Below, in pieces: positions 46,972 through 60,613 of a stretch of 64,000 nt of DNA. Both the position numbers and the translations under genes were made by a program. The stretch is from Phyllobacterium bourgognense (GTDB lineage Bacteria; Pseudomonadota; Alphaproteobacteria; Rhizobiales; Rhizobiaceae). How positions within the stretch are numbered: the first letter of the stretch is position 1; the number at the start of each line of letters is the position of its first letter. The notes beneath the pieces were generated by a model, which was not told where the DNA came from, did not search any database, and worked only from the letters and a program-made list of their open reading frames with translations. The stretch is taken from contig NZ_QPJM01000001.1 of assembly GCF_003337575.1 (NCBI RefSeq), forward strand, positions 372,001 to 436,000, read 5' to 3'.

Positions 46972-48264
46972 TTATCGGGCTGTTGCCACGCCAAAGTTAG
47001 CAGGAAGCGACATTCCGCTCGAATAATATGGATGGAGATCTGGTGAACGACTCCGGCACCACGCCAATGTTGGTAGCAAGAATATCAGCATGTGAACCCA
47101 GACCGTCAGGACCCAGTCTGTCTGGTGTGATATGGCATGAATGGCGGGTACAATCGAAAATATGTAGACGAGTTGAGCCGACATCTCTCCGCTCTTTGCC
47201 GAGGCCCACAAGCGGCTCATCAGATAAGCGAGGAGAAGAAACTTCAGGGCGCCAAAATACCAGAAGGACTGAAACGCATCGGCCATACCCGTTTCAGTCG
47301 TACCTGTCAGCGGATCGTAATCGCGTGCGGCGACAGGCATTGTCATCATGAGTGACTCTTTGAACTTCGCTCCGACGAGCTGTGCTGGTACATAATTGAA
47401 GACCAGCCTGTTCCAGTGGAACTTGCCATAATCGAAGTCCATCGTCTCTTCTGTATGATGGAGGCGCCAGATGGCATTCCGCATTTCCGGACCACCATTT
47501 TTCAGCAAATCATCGAAATTGGCGGCGACGTTGATTTGAGCGATGTCCTGCCACACGGGTGCCGAATTGGCCCTCGTAATCGTGCGATAGTCACCCATGC
47601 TGTTGAGCAGGACCGTACCGATAAGAACGCCCGCCAGCATGATGGTTCGCGGTATGACCCACCCCTTATAATACCAGAATGCCAGCGCAAAAATGATGAT
47701 TAGCTCGACTGCTTCTGCGCGCTTTCCGGTAACGACAATCCGGTCGAAATAAAACATCAGATCGACGCCTATGATGAACGCAGCGGTCCACGAATAGCGG
47801 CGGGCAAAACAGAGGACGGCGATGGCCATGCCATAACTCATGAATCGCGCAAAAAAGAGCCACGCGACCGGCGCGCCACTGATCTGCACTCCAACCATCA
47901 TCTCACCCGGCAACCGGCTGAGCTTGAAGTAGAAGTACGCGCCTGTGAGAGAAAGAAAAAAAGCCGCGATCAGCAGGCGTTTTTCATCGAAATCCCAGCG
48001 AAAAAAGGCAAAGGGCCTGGCGTTTGAAGACCACCCCAACCAGCACATCGAAAGACAAAGGATCGTGAAAGCGATTGTCTTCGCATATCCGCCTTCTGGA
48101 AGAAAACGATCGTCTGCCAGTGCCGGAATTTGCGGCAGAATAAAAGCGAAGGTGATCACGCCCACCAGAAAAGGAAACTGATAGATGCGCTCTGGCTTCA
48201 GCATACCCCACAGGAGCAGCATGAGCACCGTTCCCAGCATTAGCCATGTCAGAAGCCAGTTCAT
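46972..48264 (-). CDS. polysaccharide polymerase-like membrane protein (Wzy candidate)
   Basis: A 430-residue protein with about ten hydrophobic segments and a large extracytoplasmic region (about 250-340, containing DDLLKNGGPEMRNAIWRLHH). Its topology and place among polysaccharide genes fit a Wzy-type polymerase, for which sequence conservation is low. It is the only such candidate in the locus that also has a flippase. Its ATG overlaps the stop of the upstream YdcF-type gene. Function is inferred from topology and context. Confidence 0.7.
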   Translation of the reverse strand: MNWLLTWLMLGTVLMLLLWGMLKPERIYQFPFLVGVITFAFILPQIPALADDRFLPEGGYAKTIAFTILCLSMCWLGWSSNARPFAFFRWDFDEKRLLIAAFFLSLTGAYFYFKLSRLPGEMMVGVQISGAPVAWLFFARFMSYGMAIAVLCFARRYSWTAAFIIGVDLMFYFDRIVVTGKRAEAVELIIIFALAFWYYKGWVIPRTIMLAGVLIGTVLLNSMGDYRTITRANSAPVWQDIAQINVAANFDDLLKNGGPEMRNAIWRLHHTEETMDFDYGKFHWNRLVFNYVPAQLVGAKFKESLMMTMPVAARDYDPLTGTTETGMADAFQSFWYFGALKFLLLAYLMSRLWASAKSGEMSAQLVYIFSIVPAIHAISHQTDWVLTVWVHMLIFLLPTLAWCRSRSPDLHPYYSSGMSLPANFGVATAR

Positions 48265-48929
48265 GTTCTCGCCTCCCGCGAAGGAAATGGGGCAGGGATG
48301 CGGGTGGATTCCAAGCCGAGAAAATGGCGAATGGCATACCAGACCGTCTTTGGATACTCTTTCATGATCTGAATTCCATCGGGGCCAAATGCGATCTTCT
48401 CGAGTGACTGACGTGGCTCCACTGGAACCGACATCCAGCGAATATCTGCGGACGCGGCCTCAAAACTCGCCATGGCTCGGCGCGAGTGATACCAGCTCGT
48501 CACGAGAACGGCGCTGCGCACATTCATCTGCTTGAGGATCGGTGATGTGAAAAGCGCATTCTCCCAAGTCGTTCCCGACTGGCACTCGACGGAAACGGCA
48601 CTTCTGTCGACCCCTTGGTCGACCATTGCTTCGCGTATCCAGTAACAATCGCCGTCGCCGCTGACCAAGACCCTTGGCGCGACACCCGTTTGCCACAAGC
48701 CTGCAGCTCGGTTGGCTCGCGAGGGACCATCTCCCCCAAGAACGACGATCACGTCGACCTTGCCGATTGGATCACGAATCGTCAGCAGCGGATCGGCCAG
48801 GAAAAGCGCCAAGGGGGCGGCGGATATCGCCAGCATCGCAGCAAGACCACAACCGGCGAAGAACCACTTGCGCGATCGTTTGCGAGCGCGCCGGATGGTC
48901 CAGCCGGGATGGGTTTGGGCGCGCGTCAT
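48261..48929 (-). CDS. YdcF-family (DUF218) protein
   Basis: A 222-residue protein with one N-terminal membrane helix (residues about 22-45, FAGCGLAAMLAISAAPLALF) and a DUF218 domain: VDVIVVLGGDGPSRANRAAG, VLVSGDGDC, SGTTWENALF and VTSWYHSRRAMASF. The family is common near polysaccharide and cell-wall genes; its biochemical role is not known. It is coupled on both sides by ATGA overlaps. Confidence 0.85.
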   Translation of the reverse strand: MTRAQTHPGWTIRRARKRSRKWFFAGCGLAAMLAISAAPLALFLADPLLTIRDPIGKVDVIVVLGGDGPSRANRAAGLWQTGVAPRVLVSGDGDCYWIREAMVDQGVDRSAVSVECQSGTTWENALFTSPILKQMNVRSAVLVTSWYHSRRAMASFEAASADIRWMSVPVEPRQSLEKIAFGPDGIQIMKEYPKTVWYAIRHFLGLESTRIPAPFPSREART

Positions 48930-49759
48930 ACGGAAAGGCCAAGTTCTCGCCGCTGCAACTCTCTCATCTTGATAACGATCATGTATTCATATGACGCGAT
49001 GAGACGGCAGTAATGATAGCCTTGCCAGCCGTCGAGGAAACCGCCGCGGAGAAAATACATATAGGCGAATCTGGCCGCGGGACGAAATGGCAGGCGGTAC
49101 GAGAATTCCTTGAGTGCACGCCGTCTGGCTTCTGGTGTGGCACTGAAGAAAGAAGTCCATGGAATCTTCTTGCTGCGAAGGATCTGCAGCGACTCGCGTG
49201 CTTCGAAACCCGAATAGCGGTTATGCTTGTCGAACCAGGCGGTCATTCCCTTATTGAAGCTGTAGTGAACGAAATGCGATTGCAGACGCCCGGTCGGACC
49301 ATCGCCGACGGGACGCGAATGACATTCGCGCTCGTACTGAATACGTTCCGGTCGGGCGAGGCGCGTAATCCACGTGGGATAAAGGCTGCTATGCTTGATC
49401 CAGCGACCCATGAACATGTTCTTGTAGCGGGCGCTGAACATTGCTTCGGGTCTGTCCGGATCGGCAGCGATCGCCAGCATTTCATCGCGCAGGTCCTCGG
49501 GAGTGATCTCGTCTGCGTCGGGCATGTAGACCCATTTGTGCTTGAATTCGATTTCCTTCAGGCCATACATGCGCTGTTTTGTTTCGGTCTCATACTTGTG
49601 TTGATAGACGCGCGCGCCGGCGGCCTTGGCGATCTCGATGGTTTTGTCGGTACTATAGGAATCCAGCACAACGATATCGTCGCACCATGTCAGCGATGCC
49701 AAACATGCCGGCAAGCTCTCTTCTTCATTCAAGGTCATGATCAGGACGGATATTGACAA
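48926..49759 (-). CDS. glycosyltransferase family 2 (WaaE-like)
   Basis: About 277 residues. A TTG at 49759 with GGAG 7 nt upstream is the best start (SISVLIMTLNEEESLPACLA); a GTG at 49774 is in frame but has no such site. VVLDSYSTDKTIEIAKAAGA and the metal-binding YMPDADEITPE are typical of the WaaE/KdtX-type GT2 branch, as is the later FLRGGFLDGWQGYHYC. Cytoplasmic, membrane-associated enzyme of unknown acceptor. Coupled to the YdcF-type gene. Confidence 0.86.
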   Translation of the reverse strand: MSISVLIMTLNEEESLPACLASLTWCDDIVVLDSYSTDKTIEIAKAAGARVYQHKYETETKQRMYGLKEIEFKHKWVYMPDADEITPEDLRDEMLAIAADPDRPEAMFSARYKNMFMGRWIKHSSLYPTWITRLARPERIQYERECHSRPVGDGPTGRLQSHFVHYSFNKGMTAWFDKHNRYSGFEARESLQILRSKKIPWTSFFSATPEARRRALKEFSYRLPFRPAARFAYMYFLRGGFLDGWQGYHYCRLIASYEYMIVIKMRELQRRELGLSV

Positions 49760-49783
49760 GGGATTACTCCACACTTCGCTGGC

Positions 49784-50959
49784 TTAAACGGCGTCTGAAA
49801 ACATGCCGGTGTTGTTGTTGGCACTAGGGGGCTGAGGCGTATGGGCCATGCCTATTTCTGCACGTATTGGAGTCGGGGGGATCGGGTTCAATTGGGCGAC
49901 CGCCACTGAACGAGACTGCTGAACCCAATCTGTTCCCTCCTCGCTCGCGAGAAACACAAAGGCTGAATGCACTGCCAGCGGTAACAGCAAGGCCACCGTC
50001 ATCAGATAGTTCGAAGCTTCGATGATGATGCCGAAACACCCTATCGCACCGCAGAGCGCCGACGCTGCAAGAATGATATTCGTCGTCGTCCGTGGCGAAA
50101 TCGACCTGTCAAGCAAGAGATGATGAAGGTGCGAGCGATCGGCCGCCAACGGGCTGCGGCCCGCGTAAAGCCGCCGGACAATCAGGCTGAGCGTATCGAT
50201 CACGGGTATTGCGACGATCCACAGGAGTACGGAAAACGCGATATGGGTATGGGTCGACAAGCGGATCACAAGATAGGCGATTGCCGCACCTAGCGTCGTG
50301 CTGCCGGCATCTCCCAGAAATATCTTGGCACGCGCGACCCAGGGGCTGCGCATATTGAATGCAAGGAAACCGCTGACTGCGGCCAACAGCACGACGATCG
50401 GCAACACCAGCTCGCCAGCGCCTTTCCATCCGGCCACGACCGCGAGCCAGAAAAGAGCCACGGCCGCACTCCCGCCTGCCAAACCATCTATGCCATCGAT
50501 CATGTTCCAGGAATTGATCAGGCCTACTACGAACAAAATGGCCACGACCGTAAGGAGCAGGAAGGATATGTCGAGAAGGGCAGGCGGAAGTGCGATTCCG
50601 GTCACAATGGTCGACCCTGACAGCGGATTGACCAGTATAATTGCTGCAACAAATTGCGCGGCCAGACGCTTCGTTGCCGAGAGTTCATGACGATCGTCGA
50701 TCACGCCCACAATAATCGTGATGAGGAGGCCGACCCAAAAGTTCAGGGCTAGCAGTGGCTCGTTCCCCTGAACGAGCATGACCATTGCGAAGGCGGCGAA
50801 TATCGCGATACCGCCACAAAGCGGCACGACGCCATCATGCAGTTTTCTCCTGTCGGGATAATCGACGAGAGAACACGCGTGCGATACCTTCTTCAAAACA
50901 ACGATCAGCAAGGCACTGACTGCCATAGCTGCTAGACAATTGGTGATCCAAACAAACAA
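49784..50959 (-). CDS. WecA-type polyprenyl-phosphate sugar-phosphate transferase
   Basis: A 391-residue membrane protein with about 11 helices of the MraY/WecA family. VGVIDDRHEL, SWNMIDGIDGLAGG, KIFLGDAGS and the RSHLHH variant of the His motif are all present, so it should be active. It transfers a sugar-1-phosphate (usually N-acetylhexosamine) to undecaprenyl phosphate and probably primes the repeat unit. The start is a TTG at 50959, decided by GGAGG 6 nt upstream. The C-terminal 60 residues are polar and extra. It diverges from a LuxR-type gene. Confidence 0.9.
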   Translation of the reverse strand: MFVWITNCLAAMAVSALLIVVLKKVSHACSLVDYPDRRKLHDGVVPLCGGIAIFAAFAMVMLVQGNEPLLALNFWVGLLITIIVGVIDDRHELSATKRLAAQFVAAIILVNPLSGSTIVTGIALPPALLDISFLLLTVVAILFVVGLINSWNMIDGIDGLAGGSAAVALFWLAVVAGWKGAGELVLPIVVLLAAVSGFLAFNMRSPWVARAKIFLGDAGSTTLGAAIAYLVIRLSTHTHIAFSVLLWIVAIPVIDTLSLIVRRLYAGRSPLAADRSHLHHLLLDRSISPRTTTNIILAASALCGAIGCFGIIIEASNYLMTVALLLPLAVHSAFVFLASEEGTDWVQQSRSVAVAQLNPIPPTPIRAEIGMAHTPQPPSANNNTGMFSDAV

Positions 50960-51351
50960 GACACACCTCCAGCTGATTGTGCATCCCTTGTGCGAGATGT
51001 GTTCACCTCGTCACGGCCGTACGGAATGCTTTTCATGGAGAATACCGCTGCCATTCACGCGGCACCATTTAGGAGAAGTGAGAAGTAGTTCCTCCTGAAG
51101 GATGAGCCCCGCTGTGTCCCTTTGGACTAATGGAATCGCGCGTATAAAGGGCTATTCTGGGTAAATTGGGTACTGTCAGGCCGCAGTTGTTACTCTGTGT
51201 CACGGTCGCGTCACGTTTGGTTACATAGCCTTGCTGATCCGCAAGTATTTGCAGCATAAAACAGAATTGAAGTGGCCTTTCAGAAACTCCTTTCGAAATA
51301 AGACAAGTACAAGGGGAATACTTCTTTCACCAGGTGGCGTAGGGTATGAAC
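50960..51351. promoter_or_regulatory. divergent promoter region with a SARP-type direct-repeat box
   Basis: About 390 bp between the WecA-type gene (minus) and a LuxR-type gene (plus). It holds the 18-bp box at 51198-51215 and a conserved leader at 51317-51344 shared with the paralogous LuxR-type gene at 60.6 kb (21 of 28 bases identical, ending GGCGTAGGG). Nothing else is called. Confidence 0.5.
51198..51229 (+). promoter_or_regulatory. 7+4+7 direct-repeat box and -10-like hexamer
   Basis: TGTCACG, spacer GTCG, CGTCACG (51198-51215), then exactly 8 bp, then CATAGC (51224-51229) as a weak -10. Two similar boxes are at 60785-60768 (minus) and 58076-58093. SARP-type activators bind heptamer direct repeats with a 4-bp spacer that end 8 bp before the -10 element; that is family knowledge. 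The link to the BTAD regulator at 52.9 kb is inference. Confidence 0.5.
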
Positions 51352-52134
51352 ATGAGTGTAACAGTTGCGCGTATGGGAACTGACCTTATTCAGCAAGGAT
51401 CCGCGGTTGACGGCGGATCGAAATTCCGTGGCGGCATATTTATTCATGCCGAAGCCGGAGTTGTTTTCCAGGGGTTGATGCAATCTCTCGAAAGAACATT
51501 CCCGGATATTCAGGTCAGCCTCTCGAATAACGTTGGGGACACGGGCACACCCGATCCCAATGTAGGCCTTGTGCTGCTTCATGCGGACTTTGCTTCCGAC
51601 GTGGTCGATTGCATTGCACGTTGCAGGATGCGCTTCCCGAACGCATCGGTTACGCTGATGATTGATGAGAATAGTCCTTCCACGCAGGAACTCACCGGTC
51701 TTTTTGACAGCAAGACCATCCAGGGCCTTCTGCCCTTCAGCTTGAAACTTGATGTTTGGCTCGCGGTAGTCTGGCTATTACTTAACGGGGGCGATTATTA
51801 TCCCTCCGCCATCATCCGTTCGATGGAAAAGTCACCCAGCGTGTCTGGTAAGGTACCGCAGCTTTATACTCAGTCAGATAATGCTTCCAACCGGGCATGG
51901 CCTGTCAAAACACTGACGCTACGTGAACACGAGATTCTGCAGCTCTTATCGGAAGGCCTGCAGAACAAAATCATTGCAGATCGCCTGACACTCTCGATCC
52001 ACACGGTCAAGGTTCATGTACACAATCTGATCCGCAAGTTGCGGGCGCATAATCGCACACAGGCGACAGCAATCTATCGCAACAGCATGAACCATCATGG
52101 AATGAAACCGTTCGACACCACAGTTGTGCACTGA
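51352..52134 (+). CDS. LuxR-family transcriptional regulator
   Basis: About 260 residues. The ATG at 51352 is preferred to 51346 because TAGGG is then 7 nt upstream, as in its paralogue. Residues 20-150 look receiver-like, but the phosphate-accepting Asp position is His (VGLVLLHADF). The LuxR/GerE helix-turn-helix is clear: LREHEILQLLSEGLQNKIIA and then SIHTVKVHVHNLIRKLRAHN. Very similar over its whole length to the protein at 59.8-60.6 kb (for example GLLPFSLKLD, WLLLNGG and YYPSAIIRS are shared), so the two are duplicates. Lies between the polysaccharide locus and the peptide cluster; target genes unknown. Confidence 0.87.
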   Translation: MSVTVARMGTDLIQQGSAVDGGSKFRGGIFIHAEAGVVFQGLMQSLERTFPDIQVSLSNNVGDTGTPDPNVGLVLLHADFASDVVDCIARCRMRFPNASVTLMIDENSPSTQELTGLFDSKTIQGLLPFSLKLDVWLAVVWLLLNGGDYYPSAIIRSMEKSPSVSGKVPQLYTQSDNASNRAWPVKTLTLREHEILQLLSEGLQNKIIADRLTLSIHTVKVHVHNLIRKLRAHNRTQATAIYRNSMNHHGMKPFDTTVVH

Positions 52135-52897: not shown

Positions 52898-54922
52898 ATG
52901 AAGCTGGCGGTTTTTGGAGAGGCAACTGTTAGTCTGGGCGGGCAACTCGTCCCGCGCGTACCCGCGAACTTTCTTCGCATAATAGTCTATCTGCTTCTCG
53001 AGAGTCCCAACCATTCTGTTTCCCGCGGAAAGCTTGCTCAGGTTTTCTGGTCCGATACGGATCAGGCCCACGCTTCCATGAATCTGCGCCAGAGCCTGGC
53101 GCGCATCCGTAAATTTCAGGAACAGTACGGCCTCAACCTTGTCCAGGGTGACGCCACATATGTCTATCTTAACCTGTCGCAGGTGAGGGCAGAACTGCTC
53201 AGCATCGATCTCCTTGAATATCTGGAGTTTGCGCAGTTGGGCGACATAGAGTCTGTCCTTAGCCTTGCCGGTCTTTATTCAGGCGACCTGCTCGCACATA
53301 ACGAACCGCAGAACTCCGATTTCGATGAATGGCTGGATGTCCAGCGCGTCAAGCTGCGCGATGATCTGATCACGACGCTCTTGAGGATGGTCAACCAGCC
53401 GGTTGGCGTCAGCATCGACGAAAAGCGCCAATGCGCCCGCAAGCTGATCGAAATCGATCCCTATCAGGAGGTCGGCTATCGCACTTTGATGCAGACCGCG
53501 TCGCAACTGGGTTTGATCGCGAAGGTGGAACGCACATTCCGTGAATGCGCCAAGAAGCTCCGTGACGATCTCGATGTCGATCCGGAAGAAGAGACGATCG
53601 AGCTCTATCAGCAGCTGCTGCCCAAGCTTTCACCGGCAACGACACGCTCTCTGATCCTGCCGCAGCCGGCTCCTCCGCTCGTTGCTAATGGCGTCGAAAT
53701 CCAGACCCCGCAATCGATCCTGGCGACGACCCAGCTCGAGCAGAACAAAAAGGCTGGCCTGCCGCGAGTCATGGTCCTTTATATGCCGCACAATGCAGCG
53801 GATCCGATGGAGCAGCTTGCAGCCTCGCTCGTAGACGATATTACCATCGGGCTTTGCCGCCTGCGTACACTGTCGGTTGTTGCGCCCTATACATCGAAGA
53901 GGGTCGTCTCCGAATCTCCCATTGACAGTTTCGAAGGGCTGAATGCGCAATTCGGAGTCAACTATGCCGTCGACAGCAAGATCGTACGCCGCGACGGTTT
54001 CTGTTTTCTGTCGGTGAAATTGGTCGATGTTGCTACGCAGGAAATCGTCTGGGCCGAAAAACAGAAGTTCGATTATGTCCTGCCCGAGCAGCAATACCGC
54101 CAGCTGTCGATCCGCATCATCCTCTCCGTCGTTTCGGTCATCGAGAAGTCCGAACTCGACCGCTACAACAAGCTTTACCAGGATCCGAACGCTTACTACT
54201 GGTACCTTGTAGGCAAGAGAGAATTTGAAAAACTCGACGTTGCCAAACTCCGTCAGGCGCGGCAATCGTTCAAGAACGCCTTGACGGCGGCTCCTGACTT
54301 TGTGCCTGCACTGAGCGGTATCGCGCGAACAATGCAGCGAGAGTGGTTGGTATTGGCGCGGAAGGACAAAGACATCCTGCTTGAGGGCGAACAAATCGCT
54401 AGGCATGCTGCACCGGCCGATCCGGATGATGAGCGGCCGTTGCGCGAACTTGGCACCATCAGTATGTATCTCGGCAAATTCGACGATAGCCTGGAATATT
54501 TCGACCAGGGCGAGTCAATTAATCCGCAGCATGCCGATCTCCTTGCAGACTACGCGGACGCGCTCAATCATTACGGATACCTTGATCTTTCGCTCGAAAA
54601 AATTGAACAGGCGATAGCGCTCAACCCTCTGGCTCCGGACTATTATTACTGGGTCGGTGCTGGGACGCTTCACGATCTTGATCGTTATGAAGAAGCGATT
54701 GCCTTCATCCAGCGGATGCAAAACCCGCGTGCTGCAGCCCGGCCCATGGCCGCCTGTTGGGCCATGCTCGGTGAGCGGGAAAAGGCGAGTGAATGGAGAC
54801 AACGATCGTTGGAAGACAATCCAGATTTCCGAGTCGGGGATTGGATCAAAAATATGTCTCTCAGAATTCCCGAACAACGTCAAAAATATGAGGCGTCTCT
54901 GCGCGAAGCAGGATTCCAATAG
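52898..54922 (+). CDS. SARP/AfsR-like regulator: winged helix, BTAD and TPR
   Basis: A 674-residue protein. Residues about 1-95 are an OmpR-type winged helix (FGEATVSLGGQLVPRVPANF, then ASMNLRQSLARIRKF). Residues about 100-235 fit the bacterial transcriptional activator domain (BTAD), including WLDVQRVKLRDDLITTLLRM, IDPYQEVGYRTLMQTASQLG and DLDVDPEEETIELYQQLLP. Residues about 290-420 look like the periplasmic-type domain seen in CadC/cyclase-linked regulators (LAASLVDDITIGLCRLRTLS). TPR repeats fill about 440-650. SARP-like activators control peptide and secondary-metabolite genes by binding direct repeats. It ends 35 bp before the first precursor gene and is probably co-transcribed with it. 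Confidence 0.87.
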   Translation: MKLAVFGEATVSLGGQLVPRVPANFLRIIVYLLLESPNHSVSRGKLAQVFWSDTDQAHASMNLRQSLARIRKFQEQYGLNLVQGDATYVYLNLSQVRAELLSIDLLEYLEFAQLGDIESVLSLAGLYSGDLLAHNEPQNSDFDEWLDVQRVKLRDDLITTLLRMVNQPVGVSIDEKRQCARKLIEIDPYQEVGYRTLMQTASQLGLIAKVERTFRECAKKLRDDLDVDPEEETIELYQQLLPKLSPATTRSLILPQPAPPLVANGVEIQTPQSILATTQLEQNKKAGLPRVMVLYMPHNAADPMEQLAASLVDDITIGLCRLRTLSVVAPYTSKRVVSESPIDSFEGLNAQFGVNYAVDSKIVRRDGFCFLSVKLVDVATQEIVWAEKQKFDYVLPEQQYRQLSIRIILSVVSVIEKSELDRYNKLYQDPNAYYWYLVGKREFEKLDVAKLRQARQSFKNALTAAPDFVPALSGIARTMQREWLVLARKDKDILLEGEQIARHAAPADPDDERPLRELGTISMYLGKFDDSLEYFDQGESINPQHADLLADYADALNHYGYLDLSLEKIEQAIALNPLAPDYYYWVGAGTLHDLDRYEEAIAFIQRMQNPRAAARPMAACWAMLGEREKASEWRQRSLEDNPDFRVGDWIKNMSLRIPEQRQKYEASLREAGFQ

Positions 54923-54957
54923 TTCTCAGTTCCAATCTCATCAAAGGACCCATCTGC

Positions 54958-55200
54958 ATGGCGAAGTATTTCATTGTCGGCGAAGCCGGAAAAGACGAAC
55001 TGTGGTTGGTTGATGTACAGAGTAAGAGTGTCGAACAACTGACGGATGCCGATCTCCAGGGTTCCGATTTTTTTAAGGACGTCAAAGAGGCGCGAAAAAA
55101 TGGGGTGTCGGTAGTTAAGGGAATAAATATTGCTGTTGCTACGGACAGTCGGTCGGCGGCTGATACTAAAATGCACTCTAACGGACCTGACAAAAAATAA
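54958..55200 (+). CDS. precursor peptide A (single core-like tail)
   Basis: An 80-residue, cysteine-free protein with AAAGGA about 10 nt upstream. Its N-terminus (MAKYFIVGEAGKDELWLVDV) matches that of precursor B (MATFYIMNDPETNALWLVDS), with a shared LWLVD at residues 15-19 and Glu-x-Leu soon after. The C-terminal SRSAADTKMHSNGP (64-77) lines up without gaps with the repeat YRSNPSERAHSAGP of precursor B, sharing Arg, Ser, a basic residue, His, Ser, Gly and Pro. I infer a leader (about 1-50) and one core. Not similar to any named precursor I know. Confidence 0.75.
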   Translation: MAKYFIVGEAGKDELWLVDVQSKSVEQLTDADLQGSDFFKDVKEARKNGVSVVKGINIAVATDSRSAADTKMHSNGPDKK

Positions 55201-55312
55201 AAACAAACTAAAATACGAGCGGAAAACAAGATGAGACAATTCTTTTCTTGATCTAAAATAGAATCGTCATACGTTCGCCATGTGGGCTCTCCTTCATAGA
55301 AAGGTTATTCGC

Positions 55313-55909
55313 ATGGCAACGTTTTACATCATGAATGATCCAGAGACGAACGCGCTTTGGCTCGTCGACTCTGAAACTCAAACGATCGAGCCTCTCGATC
55401 GTGATTTAATCGCCTCTTCCGGACTGGCTGGCAGTGAATTCATTGATTCGATTGCCAATCGGCCCGGAAATATCTTTGCTGCCGATGGAAACCGGAGTGA
55501 CGCTACTGGTCGCGCTCATTCTAGCGGTATGGTAATGACTGCGGGCAGGCGGAATGATCCGTCGGACCGTGCGCATTTCTTTGGCCCTGCGTCGAAAGAA
55601 GCAGATATCGTCGTAACAGTGAACGCACGGGATGAAACATCTGATCGTGCTCACTCGAGCAGTCCGGTTGTGGACAGCGTGTACCGCAGCAATCCGTCAG
55701 AGCGTGCGCATTCCGCTGGCCCGGTTGTGGACAGCGTGTATCGCAGCAATCCATCGGAGCGTGCGCATTCCGCTGGTCCGGTTGTGGACAGCGTGTATCG
55801 CAGCAATCCATCGGAACGGGCGCATTCTGCCGGTCCGGTTGTGGCCAGTGGGTACCGCAGCAATCCGTCGGAACGGGCGCATTCCGCTGGTCCCGCGGCA
55901 CTAAACTAA
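55313..55909 (+). CDS. precursor peptide B (multi-core, repeated RAHSAGP motif)
   Basis: A 198-residue, cysteine-free protein. The ATG at 55313 has GAAAGG 8 nt upstream and makes the start match precursor A; an ATG at 55280 is in frame but not supported. Residues 1-50 are the leader, with LWLVD at 15-19. Seven core-like segments centre on Arg-Ala-His at 67-69, 86-88, 112-114, 131-133, 150-152, 169-171 and 188-190. The first three are degenerate; the last four are units of 19 residues, PVVDSVYRSNPSERAHSAG, the fourth with two or three changes (VVASGY). The YcaO gene follows 76 bp later. Multi-core precursors are known with YcaO-TfuA systems (thiovarsolins). Confidence 0.8.
   Translation: MATFYIMNDPETNALWLVDSETQTIEPLDRDLIASSGLAGSEFIDSIANRPGNIFAADGNRSDATGRAHSSGMVMTAGRRNDPSDRAHFFGPASKEADIVVTVNARDETSDRAHSSSPVVDSVYRSNPSERAHSAGPVVDSVYRSNPSERAHSAGPVVDSVYRSNPSERAHSAGPVVASGYRSNPSERAHSAGPAALN
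55664..55891 (+). repeat. four tandem 57-bp coding repeats
   Basis: Units at 55664-55720, 55721-55777, 55778-55834 and 55835-55891, each 19 codons in the precursor B frame. Differences are mostly synonymous third-position changes (for example CCGTCA against CCATCG), except in unit 4. The array ends with codons for PAALN and the stop. This pattern suggests recent duplication with selection to keep the peptide. Confidence 0.95.
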
Positions 55910-55985
55910 ATACTGTTGCAAGCGGCTATCCAGCATTTGGATAGTTTGCAAATAAATGCGTGTTTTGCGGCCTGATGGAGTGGCA

Positions 55986-57242
55986 ATGAAACCATTGGCC
56001 GAGCTTCCGGTTCTTGACCGGCTGGCGGCAGACGAAGCGAACCTTCGTTCTGCTTTCCGCCCAGGAGAACCGTCATCGACAAGACTGATTGATGCGGACG
56101 AAACCGTGAGCCGGTTGCGGCCGCACTTTCCGCGTTTGGGCATCGTCCGGATGGCCGAGGTGACCGGCCTCGACCGGATCGGCATCCCCGTGTGGATGGC
56201 CGTACGCCCCAACAGCCGGACATTGGCCGTCAGCCAGGGCAAAGGCATCAGCGCCGCCCATGCCCGCGCTTCCGCTGTGATGGAAGCCGCCGAAATCGCC
56301 ATTGCCGAAGATGTTCCGCTTGCTTCCTTTGCCGCCTGCCGCCGCGAGTTACGCGACGCCGGCCACGATGTATTTGATGGGCGCATGCTGTTGATGCGCG
56401 GCGCGGACGAGGCCGGAGCCGATGAGAACGATTATTGGCTCGAAGGCTTCGACCTTTTGAAACAGAAGCCGGTTTTTGTGCCGCGCGAACTCGTCTCGCT
56501 CGATTTCACCTCGGCGCGGCAATCCTGGCACTATTGCCAGTCGACCGATGGTCTCGCCTCGGGCAATTGCCTGCTGGAAGCAGTCATTCACGGATTGTGC
56601 GAGCGTGTCGAACGCGATGCGACCGAGTTATGGCGCTTTCAACGCGACGCCGGTGTGCAGGCACATTGTGTCGATCCGGCGGTTTTCGGCGATAGCGGCA
56701 TTGACTGGCTGGCCGAGCGGATCGCCGCTGCAAACTTTGTCTTGCGGCTGTTCAATGTGACGTCGGACATCGGCCTGCCCGTTTTCATGGCGACGATCAG
56801 CCCGGCGACACAGCATGGCACTTATCTGCATTTCGATCTCGCCGCTGGTTACGGCTGTCATTTGTCGCCCTGCGTTGCGGCAATGCGAGCCATTACCGAG
56901 GCCGCACAGACACGAATCACCAATATTTCCGGCGCGCGCGATGATTTCGACCCCTCCGAATATGCACAGCGCCTTGCGCCGGATCTCGGCGTCTACATCC
57001 ACGCCGAACCAACTGATCATTGGCGGTTCGACGAGCCAGAACCTGCGGATCGAGCCAGCCTCGAAACCTATCTCGAACCTTTGCGCCGGCGCGGTATTGG
57101 CAGCGTCGTTGTCGTTCCCATGGGCGGCGAGGACTACGGGATGTCAGTCTGCCGTGTTTTGGTCAACGAGCTGGAAAGTCCGGCCGGTATCCGCAAGCAT
57201 CGCTTTGGCGGGCGCGCGCTCAACGTCATGCTTCGGCAATAG
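55986..57242 (+). CDS. YcaO-domain enzyme (TfuA-associated type)
   Basis: A 418-residue YcaO protein. The ATG at 55986 has GGAG 5 nt upstream; an ATG at 55956 has no such site. The three ATP/magnesium-binding boxes are intact: Ser96-x3-Glu100-x2-Glu103 (HARASAVMEAAE), Glu198 with Glu206-x2-Glu209-Arg-Asp (ERVERD), and Glu305-x2-Gln308-x-Arg310 (EAAQTR). YcaO enzymes use ATP to activate a backbone amide, giving azolines or, with TfuA, thioamides. It lacks the C-terminal PxPxP of azoline-forming cyclodehydratases, and there is no partner E1-like protein. Ten bp before tfuA, so probably one operon. Confidence 0.9.
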   Translation: MKPLAELPVLDRLAADEANLRSAFRPGEPSSTRLIDADETVSRLRPHFPRLGIVRMAEVTGLDRIGIPVWMAVRPNSRTLAVSQGKGISAAHARASAVMEAAEIAIAEDVPLASFAACRRELRDAGHDVFDGRMLLMRGADEAGADENDYWLEGFDLLKQKPVFVPRELVSLDFTSARQSWHYCQSTDGLASGNCLLEAVIHGLCERVERDATELWRFQRDAGVQAHCVDPAVFGDSGIDWLAERIAAANFVLRLFNVTSDIGLPVFMATISPATQHGTYLHFDLAAGYGCHLSPCVAAMRAITEAAQTRITNISGARDDFDPSEYAQRLAPDLGVYIHAEPTDHWRFDEPEPADRASLETYLEPLRRRGIGSVVVVPMGGEDYGMSVCRVLVNELESPAGIRKHRFGGRALNVMLRQ

Positions 57243-57251
57243 GAGAGGGCG

Positions 57252-57992
57252 ATGAGGATCCTGTTTGCGGGGCCAAGCCTTTCCGGAACGGAATTTGTAC
57301 CTGTGCGAGGCGGTGAAGACCGCGTGCTGCCTGAATATGGGTTGACCTGCCGCGGCCCCGCCAAATGCGGTGATATCACCCATGCGATAGATCAAGGCTT
57401 CGGCGTCATCGCATTGGTCGACGGGCGGTTCGAAGACGTTGCTGCTGTCTGGCACAAGGAAATTCTCTATGCGCTGTCGCGAGGCGCCATTGTCTACGGC
57501 GCGGCCAGCATGGGCGCCTTGCGCGCTGCCGAGTGCCATCCGTTTGGGATGATCGGCATCGGCGAAGTGTTCGAACGTTATGCCTTTGGCGGCCTGGAAG
57601 ACGATGCCGCCGTCGCGCAGGTTCATGCGCCGGCCGAATTCGGTTATGTCGCCTTCAGCGAAGCCATGGTAACCATCGACGCAACGCTCGATGCGGCGCT
57701 TGCCGCCGGAACAATCGATGCCGGGGAATACGCTCTGATTCGCACGCGTGCGGATGCCGTGTTTTTCAAGGATCGGACTTGGCGGCGGATATTTGAGGTT
57801 GTCGCGCCCGAGATGGATCGCGCGGCCGAACGATTGAAACCGCATATCCGCAATATCAAGCGTGAAGACGCCGCGATGCTGCTCGACGTTCTTCTGGAGC
57901 GCAAAAGCGCTACCCCGGTCACAGAGCTGCGGCCTGATTTCGCCGGATGGCAATTCAACGAAACCACGCAGTGGAGCAAGCTTCGGGTCTGA
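57252..57992 (+). CDS. TfuA-like protein
   Basis: A 246-residue TfuA-family protein, preceded by GGAGAGG. Family features: FAGPSLSG near the start, PPAKCGDIT-like GPAKCGDITHAIDQGF near 35, ALVDGRFEDVAAVWHKEILY and then ALSRGAIVYGAASMGALRAA, and GIGEVFERYAFGGLEDDAAV followed by HAP. TfuA proteins are obligate partners of a subset of YcaO enzymes, first known from the trifolitoxin cluster of Rhizobium, and are needed for thioamide formation, probably by supplying sulfide. Here it directly follows YcaO, which makes thioamidation the best prediction. Confidence 0.92.
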   Translation: MRILFAGPSLSGTEFVPVRGGEDRVLPEYGLTCRGPAKCGDITHAIDQGFGVIALVDGRFEDVAAVWHKEILYALSRGAIVYGAASMGALRAAECHPFGMIGIGEVFERYAFGGLEDDAAVAQVHAPAEFGYVAFSEAMVTIDATLDAALAAGTIDAGEYALIRTRADAVFFKDRTWRRIFEVVAPEMDRAAERLKPHIRNIKREDAAMLLDVLLERKSATPVTELRPDFAGWQFNETTQWSKLRV

Positions 57993-59800: not shown

Positions 59801-60613
59801 TTATACGGCCCGGGCCATCTCAAGCGAGCCGTCAACGCGACCCATCCCCGTACCGTACGCTTTAAAAGGGGGCTGGTACGCCTCCTGGTCCATGCTGTTC
59901 CGGTATACCGCTGCAGCTTGGGTGCGATTGTGAACCCGAAGCTTGCGAATAAGATTGTGCACATGAACCTTGACGGTGTGTTCGGAGAGCGACAACCGAT
60001 CCGCAATGATCTTGTTCTGCAGACCTTCCGACAGAAGCTCCAGGATCTGAGTTTCGCGGAGTGTCAGTGTCTTGATCTGCTTGACGACACCCGAACTGTT
60101 TTTTCCCTGGTTGCCGAAAGCATTCGCGTGACCGCCGGCCGAGTTCTTCTCGATTGAACGTATGATCGCCGAAGGATAATATTCACCACCATTCAGCAGC
60201 AGCCAGATCACCGCCAGCCAGATATCGAGTTTGAGACTGAAAGGAAGAAGTCCCTGGACCTGCCGATTGTCGAACAGGCTGTTCAACTCTTGTAAACCGG
60301 CGCTGTTTTCATCGATCATCATTGTGATCGATGCGCTGGGAAAGCGCTTTTTGAAGCGTGCGATGGACTCGGTTACATCGGCGACAAAGCCGCTGTGAAT
60401 AAGCACGAGGCCAACATCTTCATCAAACTTTTCGTATTCGACGAATTTGCTGGACAGGTGAACATCGATGTCGGGAAATGTTCTCTCCAGGGATTGAACC
60501 AGGCCCTGAAATACCACTCCCGATTCGGCATAGATGAATATGCCGCTTTTGAACTTTGAGTCGCCTTCAAGCTTCGATGCATAATGAATATGATCAGGTG
60601 TTGTTCCGCTCAT
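59801..60613 (-). CDS. LuxR-family transcriptional regulator (paralogue)
   Basis: A 270-residue protein with TAGGG 7 nt before the ATG. It is a close paralogue of the protein at 51.35-52.13 kb: KSGIFIYAESGVVFQGLVQS, GLLPFSLKLD and LSEGLQNKIIADRL are nearly identical. The receiver-like part again has His at the phosphate-acceptor position (VGLVLIHSGF). The LuxR/GerE helix-turn-helix is SEHTVKVHVHNLIRKLRVHN. The C-terminus has a 25-residue extension absent from its relative. Its promoter carries the same 18-bp box. Targets unknown. Confidence 0.87.
   Translation of the reverse strand: MSGTTPDHIHYASKLEGDSKFKSGIFIYAESGVVFQGLVQSLERTFPDIDVHLSSKFVEYEKFDEDVGLVLIHSGFVADVTESIARFKKRFPSASITMMIDENSAGLQELNSLFDNRQVQGLLPFSLKLDIWLAVIWLLLNGGEYYPSAIIRSIEKNSAGGHANAFGNQGKNSSGVVKQIKTLTLRETQILELLSEGLQNKIIADRLSLSEHTVKVHVHNLIRKLRVHNRTQAAAVYRNSMDQEAYQPPFKAYGTGMGRVDGSLEMARAV

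Follow-up and report, generated by a model that had tools for sequence, protein, structure and literature searches.

Few classes of paired YcaO and TfuA enzymes have been characterized, and none of those seen in the available text of PMC13174530 has a core of the kind described below. The closest described system is that of the thiovarsolins (varAYT of Streptomyces), in which YcaO and TfuA accompany a repeating multi-core precursor with up to five repeats; according to the available portions of PMC6511847, this cluster has no specific protease, and precursor, YcaO, and TfuA are enough for the thioamide tripeptide. We describe a related cassette from Phyllobacterium bourgognense, located in a stretch of 64,000 nucleotides (hereafter the window) of a 5.6-Mb genome assembled in 61 contigs. 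Its five consecutive genes, all on the + strand, encode a BTAD/TPR regulator, two small precursors (A1 and A2), a YcaO, and a TfuA. The multi-core precursor and the enzyme pair are shared with the thiovarsolins, whereas the second precursor, the regulator, and a residue code are features of the window cassette; conversely, the thiovarsolin core is of the APR/GPR type, neither motif being present in A1 or A2, and the thiovarsolin cluster contains heme oxygenase-like and other genes, with no regulator named in the available sections (PMC6511847).

Clusters of this general type are numerous. More than 1,000 TfuA-related clusters were predicted in Proteobacteria in 2021, more than 500 of them in Rhizobium, and only nine of the whole set resemble known thioamidated ribosomally synthesized and post-translationally modified peptides (RiPPs), as stated in the main text of PMC8120280; the family in the window is very likely among these clusters. 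That main text, supplements aside, does not contain the words Phyllobacterium, repeat, or SARP, and no such precursor or regulator link appears in its sections. An earlier annotation of this DNA, made without database searches (the sequence-only reading), had presented the locus as a probable new system. Neither window precursor has a convincing match in NCBIfam or Pfam; since multi-core YcaO-TfuA precursors and more than 1,000 TfuA-type clusters are already in print (PMC6511847 and PMC8120280, available text), the enzymes offer less novelty than that reading held. What is new is the concordance of core residue 9 between A1 and A2 and its perfect covariation with regulator residue 593. The literature searched, subscription papers and supplements aside, yielded no description of the precursor family or of this residue code.

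On the regulator side, the comparison is with RRNPPA systems such as Rap-Phr and PlcR-PapR, which are described from Firmicutes in the available text of PMC9765709 and PMC11343458. As in those systems, the gene of a putative TPR receptor (array at residues 397-670) adjoins a peptide gene, A1 beginning 35 bases after the end of the regulator gene; unlike them, the window system is alphaproteobacterial, has a BTAD-type DNA-binding half, and probably uses a modified peptide. We propose, with a probability of roughly 0.6, that this is a YcaO-TfuA RiPP cassette whose regulator senses its own core peptide through core residue 9 and regulator residue 593. The regulator gene (52898..54922, + strand, 674 residues), which the sequence-only reading left uninterpreted, holds the main new evidence.

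Both small precursors with related leaders that the sequence-only reading predicted were confirmed. A1 (54958..55200, + strand, 80 residues) consists of a leader and a single C-terminal core, R65-P77 (55150..55188, + strand), with H73 (55174-55176) at core position 9. A2 (55313..55909, + strand, 198 residues) has a leader of about residues 1-55 followed by seven core units (55493..55894, + strand) that start at R61, R80, R106, R125, R144, R163, and R182 and all have His at position 9; the A1 core can be aligned with these units. Some details had to be revised. The seven Arg-Ala-His segments of A2 are present, but RAHSAGP occurs in the last four only, the first three being RAHSSGM, RAHFFGP, and RAHSSSP, and the conserved core element is not R-A-H-S-x-G-P but R-S-[DN]-P-S-[ED]-R, the position occupied by His being variable. 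In 17 genomes of the genus, A2 units take the form R-S-[DN]-P-S-[ED]-R-A-X-S, with one to eight units per gene. Position X, which is core position 9, is His in 42, Phe in 16, Ser in 10, Tyr in 10, and Leu in 2 of 80 units, a tally that does not include units failing the search pattern; A2 of one genome (G1069), missed by the pattern, was read separately and added. The absence of Cys was reported correctly for both window precursors; it is no family trait, because among the 17 remaining cassette-bearing genomes of the genus, 12 encode an A2 with one to three Cys residues, leader included.

At the DNA level, the repeats form a 57-bp array (55664-55895, 4.1 copies, 90% matches), and the window's four RSNPSERAHSAGP units share one 13-residue protein sequence, the nucleotide differences across it being silent only. 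Comparison of units within genes gave a ratio of nonsynonymous to synonymous differences per site (pN/pS) of 0.25 for the coding frame, compared with 1.65 and 1.67 for the two alternative frames; this comparison shows that the repeat units are under in-frame purifying selection. Searches of A1, A2, and six relatives against NCBIfam and Pfam gave weak matches only, none of them convincing; a DUF3993 match in the precursor of one order locus (L050; 1.5e-5, barely above the cut-off) was rejected as repeat-driven. The structure model of A1 (mean predicted local distance difference test [pLDDT] score 60.5) shows a leader of three strands and two helices and a low-confidence core.

Within a genome, A1 and A2 share the residue at core position 9, even though it differs between genomes (Phe, Tyr, Ser, or Leu in 12 of the 18 genus genomes with the cassette). 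An automatic rule gave agreement in 17 of the 18 (shuffle mean 4.1, p 5e-5), which became 18 of 18 once genome G149 was re-anchored by hand on the second Arg; the majority residue was used for the unit-variable genes in G212, G1061, G1066, and G1067. For the other twelve core positions, matching between A1 and A2 did not exceed that of shuffles (p >= 0.16). Among 708 variable columns of the regulator, YcaO, and TfuA (columns with more than two gaps excluded), a single one has the same partition as residue 9: regulator residue 593, which is Asp in the window (codon 54674..54676, + strand). The pairs of core residue 9 and regulator residue 593 are H-D, F-N, S-Y, Y-A, and L-S, and the next-best column reaches an adjusted Rand index (ARI) of 0.67. 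Thus, in the aligned genus cassettes, core residue 9 is shown to covary perfectly with regulator residue 593. Two degraded second copies of the cassette (contigs G000:C21, of the window genome, and G1072:C4), which lay outside the scan, combine Leu at core position 9 with Ser at 593, like G1066. The side-chain volumes of the paired residues are inversely related (r = -0.90, five pairs), and His pairs with Asp.

A column match by itself is weak evidence at slowly changing positions, because such positions change only once or twice: core position 2 has one identical column, position 5 has twenty-two, and position 11 has one YcaO column. Position 9 is the only core position with five states and 4-7 changes; on the YcaO+TfuA tree it changed six times, in A1 and A2 alike. 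When characters with six changes were simulated on that tree, a column matched in 2 of 20,000 (length-weighted) or 0 of 20,000 (equal weights) cases; the corresponding counts were 0 of 10,000 on the tree of the regulator N-half (seven changes), 10 of 10,000 on the TPR tree (five changes), and 48 of 8,123 on the local tree of residues 560-625 (four changes), where a match within TPR columns occurred in 1 of 8,123. Simulated characters were kept if they had at least four states on the YcaO+TfuA tree and five states on the others. Mere hitchhiking is disfavored because nearby codons do not track residue 9 and the five residues at 593 are encoded by nine codons: codons 560-625 without 593 have a mean ARI of 0.17 and a maximum of 0.53 with residue 9 and are no nearer to it than other parts. 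Within the stretch 576-594, residue 593 is the only five-state site, the three further variable sites having two states each. In genus g204, EAS cores go with Cys at the corresponding site (2 genomes) and EAF cores with Phe (7 genomes); several of these loci are duplicates from a single genome, the cores differ at more than one residue, and perhaps a single change is involved.

Residue 593 lies in the TPR array of the regulator. The regulator matches the Pfam BTAD domain (2e-10) and TPR models and is annotated as SARP-like. Its AlphaFold model (mean pLDDT 83.5) has a DNA-binding/BTAD N-terminal half, a low-confidence linker (243-277), an alpha/beta part (about 281-390), and a helical TPR array (about 397-670), in which residue 593 closes helix 581-593. 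From a consensus alignment, we take it to be position 13 of a TPR repeat, presumably one that commonly faces the ligand.

The part of the regulator that contains residue 593 has also moved together with A1. Compared with P. onerii, KW56, and P. trifolii CECT 7015 (loci L002-L004), the window cassette shows about 87-99% identity outside a block that comprises the TPR half and A1, and 46-83% identity over it; compared with P. endophyticum PEPV15 (L005), it is 99-100% identical over the TPR half and A1 and 66-97% identical in the remaining cassette. The genomes of L002, L003, L004, and L005 are the same as G1065, G1059, G1070, and G1060, and each was counted once. Informative sites are L005-like in 299 of 303 cases in the block (54100-55300) versus 34 of 409 to its left and 67 of 713 to its right. 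The exchanged block is placed at 54190..55244 (+ strand), with switches at 54133-54190 and 55244-55369; the left switch corresponds to residues of about 412-431, close to where the modeled TPR array begins. These site patterns show that the regulator TPR half and A1 were exchanged as one block, which would move lock and key together. Across 18 genomes, distances between A1 leaders follow those of the TPR part (residues 405-658; partial r 0.46, p 0.0005). The A1 leader does not follow the A2 leader (partial r -0.04, 17 genomes), and the A2 leader tracks YcaO (partial r 0.60, p 0.0005).

The cassette recurs as a unit. In the genus, precursors and YcaO are present in the identical 18 of 20 genomes (agreement of presence and absence 20/20), and the regulator is found in all 18 cassettes. 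In the order, a leader profile matches 38 of 397 genomes at E <= 0.01 and 33 at E <= 1e-9; this profile was built from 25 typed rows, of which 18 come from sampled genomes, and the counts are therefore partly circular, as is the match of A1 (8.1e-30), whose own row is part of the profile. The leader adjoins YcaO in 29 of the 33 confident genomes; two others lie at contig ends, and in the last two the regulator is present with no YcaO within 1.5 kb. This is the opposite of the wide occurrence of precursors without YcaO and TfuA that the sequence-only reading had named as evidence against itself. A search for the leader beyond the order, across 385 genomes of the class and with only part of the first-pass candidates scored, found it in a single genome, that of the window itself. 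By eye, 25 of 40 order loci around YcaO matches have a precursor with the same leader type (a few loci share a genome), and the regulator lies upstream of YcaO in 32 of the 40; their cores are highly diverse (e.g., RSEAASHYYYPSR, RSDAASHIFYG, and SASGLFERSE). Given this recurrence across genus and order and the in-frame pN/pS ratio, the repeats and the cassette are not the product of chance.

The identification of a RiPP-type cassette with a multi-core precursor was correct, as leader and cores are encoded beside the enzymes, and so was that of a YcaO with three ATP boxes adjacent to a TfuA. YcaO (55986..57242, + strand, 418 residues from the likely start) matches PF02624 at 9e-60, and TfuA (57252..57992, + strand, 246 residues) matches PF07812 at 1e-39, both above the cut-off. 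The best NCBIfam matches, both under the cut-off, are TIGR03266 (2.4e-56, 191.3 of 365 bits) and NF033432 (3.7e-45, 153.9 of 235.2 bits), the methanogen proteins for thioamidation of a glycine of McrA; the substrates here would be small precursors instead. The nearest sequences with solved structures are MJ1094 (6pe3) for YcaO (8e-24) and 6xp8 for TfuA (5.7e-24). In YcaO, residues S96, E100, E103, E206, E209, D211, E305, Q308, and R310 are invariant in 45 of 45 aligned proteins. TfuA-associated YcaOs prefer Met in box 1, His in box 2, and Ala in box 3 (PMC8120280, main text), and the equivalent residues, M99 (44/45), H202 (42/45), and A306 (41/45), are kept; the mapping of the published box numbering onto this YcaO is our own and covers the box residues only. 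A Ser-Lys pair is reported for TfuA in the available text of PMC13185837. The window TfuA has S86, K69, and K203, all conserved in 45 of 45 proteins; in the alignment with 6xp8, S86 corresponds to Ser and K69 to Arg.

Two proteins of the ThiS family, which also includes MoaD, are encoded in the window genome. TfuA is reported to work on a thiocarboxylated carrier of the ThiS type (PMC13063428 and PMC13185837, available text). Together with the nearest solved relatives and the preferred box residues, these carriers make thioamidation the likeliest chemistry of the pair. Linear azole-containing peptides have a heterocyclizable Cys (or Ser/Thr) core, an E1-like partner, and a dehydrogenase. The window cassette differs from these systems: its precursors contain Ser but no Cys, and no E1-like or dehydrogenase Pfam match was found among the five cassette and eight flanking proteins. 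The last part of the TfuA gene (about 57600-57990) shows 66-73% DNA identity to P. endophyticum, and its first part and YcaO show 83-97%; the 3' end is perhaps another exchange.

Our proposal is that YcaO, together with TfuA, would modify the single core of A1 and the seven cores of A2, most likely by backbone thioamidation. General peptidases would then free the peptides, as no dedicated one was recognized, and the BTAD/TPR regulator would bind the core directly, TPR residue 593 reading core residue 9, with either the precursor or the mature peptide as the bound form. The regulator would thus be a sensor of the peptide of its own operon. A number of observations weigh against this proposal. 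A neighborhood survey of 46 loci, made by eye and without a family scan of all neighbors, recognized no transporter or exporter, peptidase, or immunity gene linked to the cassette. Fold searches with Foldseek/VIA point to TPR arrays in general and not specifically to peptide receptors: 4gyo is the sole RRNPP receptor recognized among the VIA matches listed, and other TPR proteins score equally well or higher. The joint changes of residues 9 and 593 number six on the YcaO+TfuA tree, seven on the N-half tree, five on the TPR tree, and four on the local tree, which is the minimum for five states; recombination blurs these trees, and because the TPR and local trees are poorly resolved, we put the true number at 4 to 7. 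A test on independent pairs has one to three pairs per state, which places significance out of reach. Outside the genus, the pairing does not hold as such: L050 (core IFY) and L051 (core ILY), which align loosely here, both have Leu at the 593 site, and L048/L049 have Tyr at position 9 with His, not Ala, at the site. The block exchange is a single event. Finally, the A1 leader also shows a weak relation to the N-part of the regulator (0.27, p 0.02), distances of the A1 core agree better with those of the A2 leader (0.47, p 0.001) than with those of the TPR part (0.22, p 0.05), and we discount the covariation of leader and TPR part as proof, since gene adjacency could produce such linkage.

The alternatives differ mainly in what happens to the peptide. 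If the regulator bound the unmodified precursor inside the cell, the cassette would be a feedback switch with no released signal; the gap of 35 bases between regulator and A1 and the lack of a recognized exporter fit this arrangement, and all facts on core and residue 593 are compatible with precursor binding, but the repeated cores of A2 (1-8 copies) and the YcaO-TfuA pair would then have no clear role, and we consider it somewhat unlikely. Secretion of the peptides as an antibiotic or bacteriocin, with a regulator that only gauges the product to tune production, seems unlikely. On the one hand, thioamidated RiPPs with antibiotic or cytotoxic activity exist (PMC8120280, main text), phazolicin is a rhizobial RiPP antibiotic according to the sources available, and the 9-593 link is equally compatible with product sensing. 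On the other hand, the survey described above recognized no linked immunity gene, peptidase, or exporter, and a distribution this broad, in 18 of 20 genus genomes, would be atypical of a narrow-spectrum weapon. Beyond sensing as such, we tentatively suggest that the thioamidated RiPP may be a Gram-negative peptide pheromone, in which residue 9 would give the signal its identity, residue 593 would act as the lock, A1 and A2 would be two sources of one signal type, and lock and key would recombine jointly. Should this be true, the other variants of the regulator-precursor-YcaO-TfuA arrangement in Hyphomicrobiales would form one large unrecognized signaling family.

Other alternatives concern the enzymes. 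Residue 9 could be matched between A1 and A2 as the site read by YcaO, the 593 link being a by-product; both precursors are expected substrates and the A2 leader tracks YcaO, but residue 9 has no matching column in either enzyme (in alignment numbering, the best are TfuA 223 with ARI 0.60 and YcaO 158 with ARI 0.56, against 1.00 for the regulator site), which makes this explanation improbable. We see similarly little chance that the product is something other than a thioamide, such as an oxazoline or an amidine formed on cores rich in Ser: Ser is common in the cores, and other YcaO chemistry is known (an amidine peptide is described in the available text of PMC8442711), yet the TfuA-type signature residues and the nearest solved relatives are those of thioamidation proteins. 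His-thioamide metal chelators are a very improbable product; although every core in the window contains His, position 9 varies as described across most of the genus, and no cassette protein matches a metal-uptake family in NCBIfam or Pfam. For the proposal that the regulator senses its own core peptide, the sequences hint at a role for such peptides, namely recognition of the core by a regulator, and this question is directly testable in plant-associated strains because the two residues to swap are named. To our knowledge, modified-peptide signaling systems have not been described in this bacterial group, and none was found in the available text of the literature searched. If the peptide is released, the cassette would be such a system.

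Several further features of the cassette and its surroundings were recorded. The longest open reading frames of A2 and YcaO start at 55280 and 55956, both upstream of the starts used here (55313 and 55986), which are favored because of ribosome-binding-like sites (by eye) and shorter relatives. A scan for promoters and terminators gave no more sites than shuffled sequences, and PADLOC gave no match for the five cassette proteins. In the survey of 46 loci, ABC-type ATPases linking 10 loci were set aside as seemingly unrelated to the cassette, since they are of various kinds, lie 2.3-6.5 kb away from YcaO, and in most cases occupy the opposite strand; several of the top recurrent neighbor groups turned out to be antisense open reading frames.

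The only other YcaO sequence found in the window genome is a remnant within its broken second copy of the cassette. The degraded copies lie at about 20.9-23.9 kb of G000:C21 (L017) and at about 946-950 kb of G1072:C4 (L167). L017 retains open frames for the regulator and for an A2-type protein with the core RSDPSERALSFDG, A1 is broken, YcaO is reduced to the remnant, and transposase-like open reading frames are close by; in L167, the regulator match is split into two overlapping pieces. The TPR parts of both copies are 81-83% identical to that of G1066 and closest to those of G1067 and G1071, and the two copies may share one origin. Two other loci of the order, L102 and L114, contain the regulator and a leader-type precursor with no YcaO within 1.5 kb, followed in L102 by a transposase-like open reading frame (by eye); these are possibly receivers or decayed cassettes.

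In Rhizobium leguminosarum and relatives (L079, L081, and L090), the regulator-YcaO-TfuA frame is accompanied by a different candidate precursor of 47 residues with the C-terminal end L-T-H-A-L-[KR]-F-R. Eight loci (L053, L059, L060, L067, L071, L072, L074, and L091) contain a small family of XRE-type helix-turn-helix proteins, which we take to resemble the PraR/PhrR regulators of rhizobia; in seven of the eight, the gene is on the same strand, upstream of the regulator or YcaO. In the window itself, a region to the left of the cassette (46972-50959, - strand) encodes a 430-residue protein without a Pfam match and polysaccharide-type proteins, namely glycosyltransferases of families 2 and 4 and a DUF218 protein. 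Two LuxR-type (GerE) regulators, at 51346-52134 (+ strand) and 59801-60613 (- strand), flank the cassette in opposite orientation and share 64% identity with each other.

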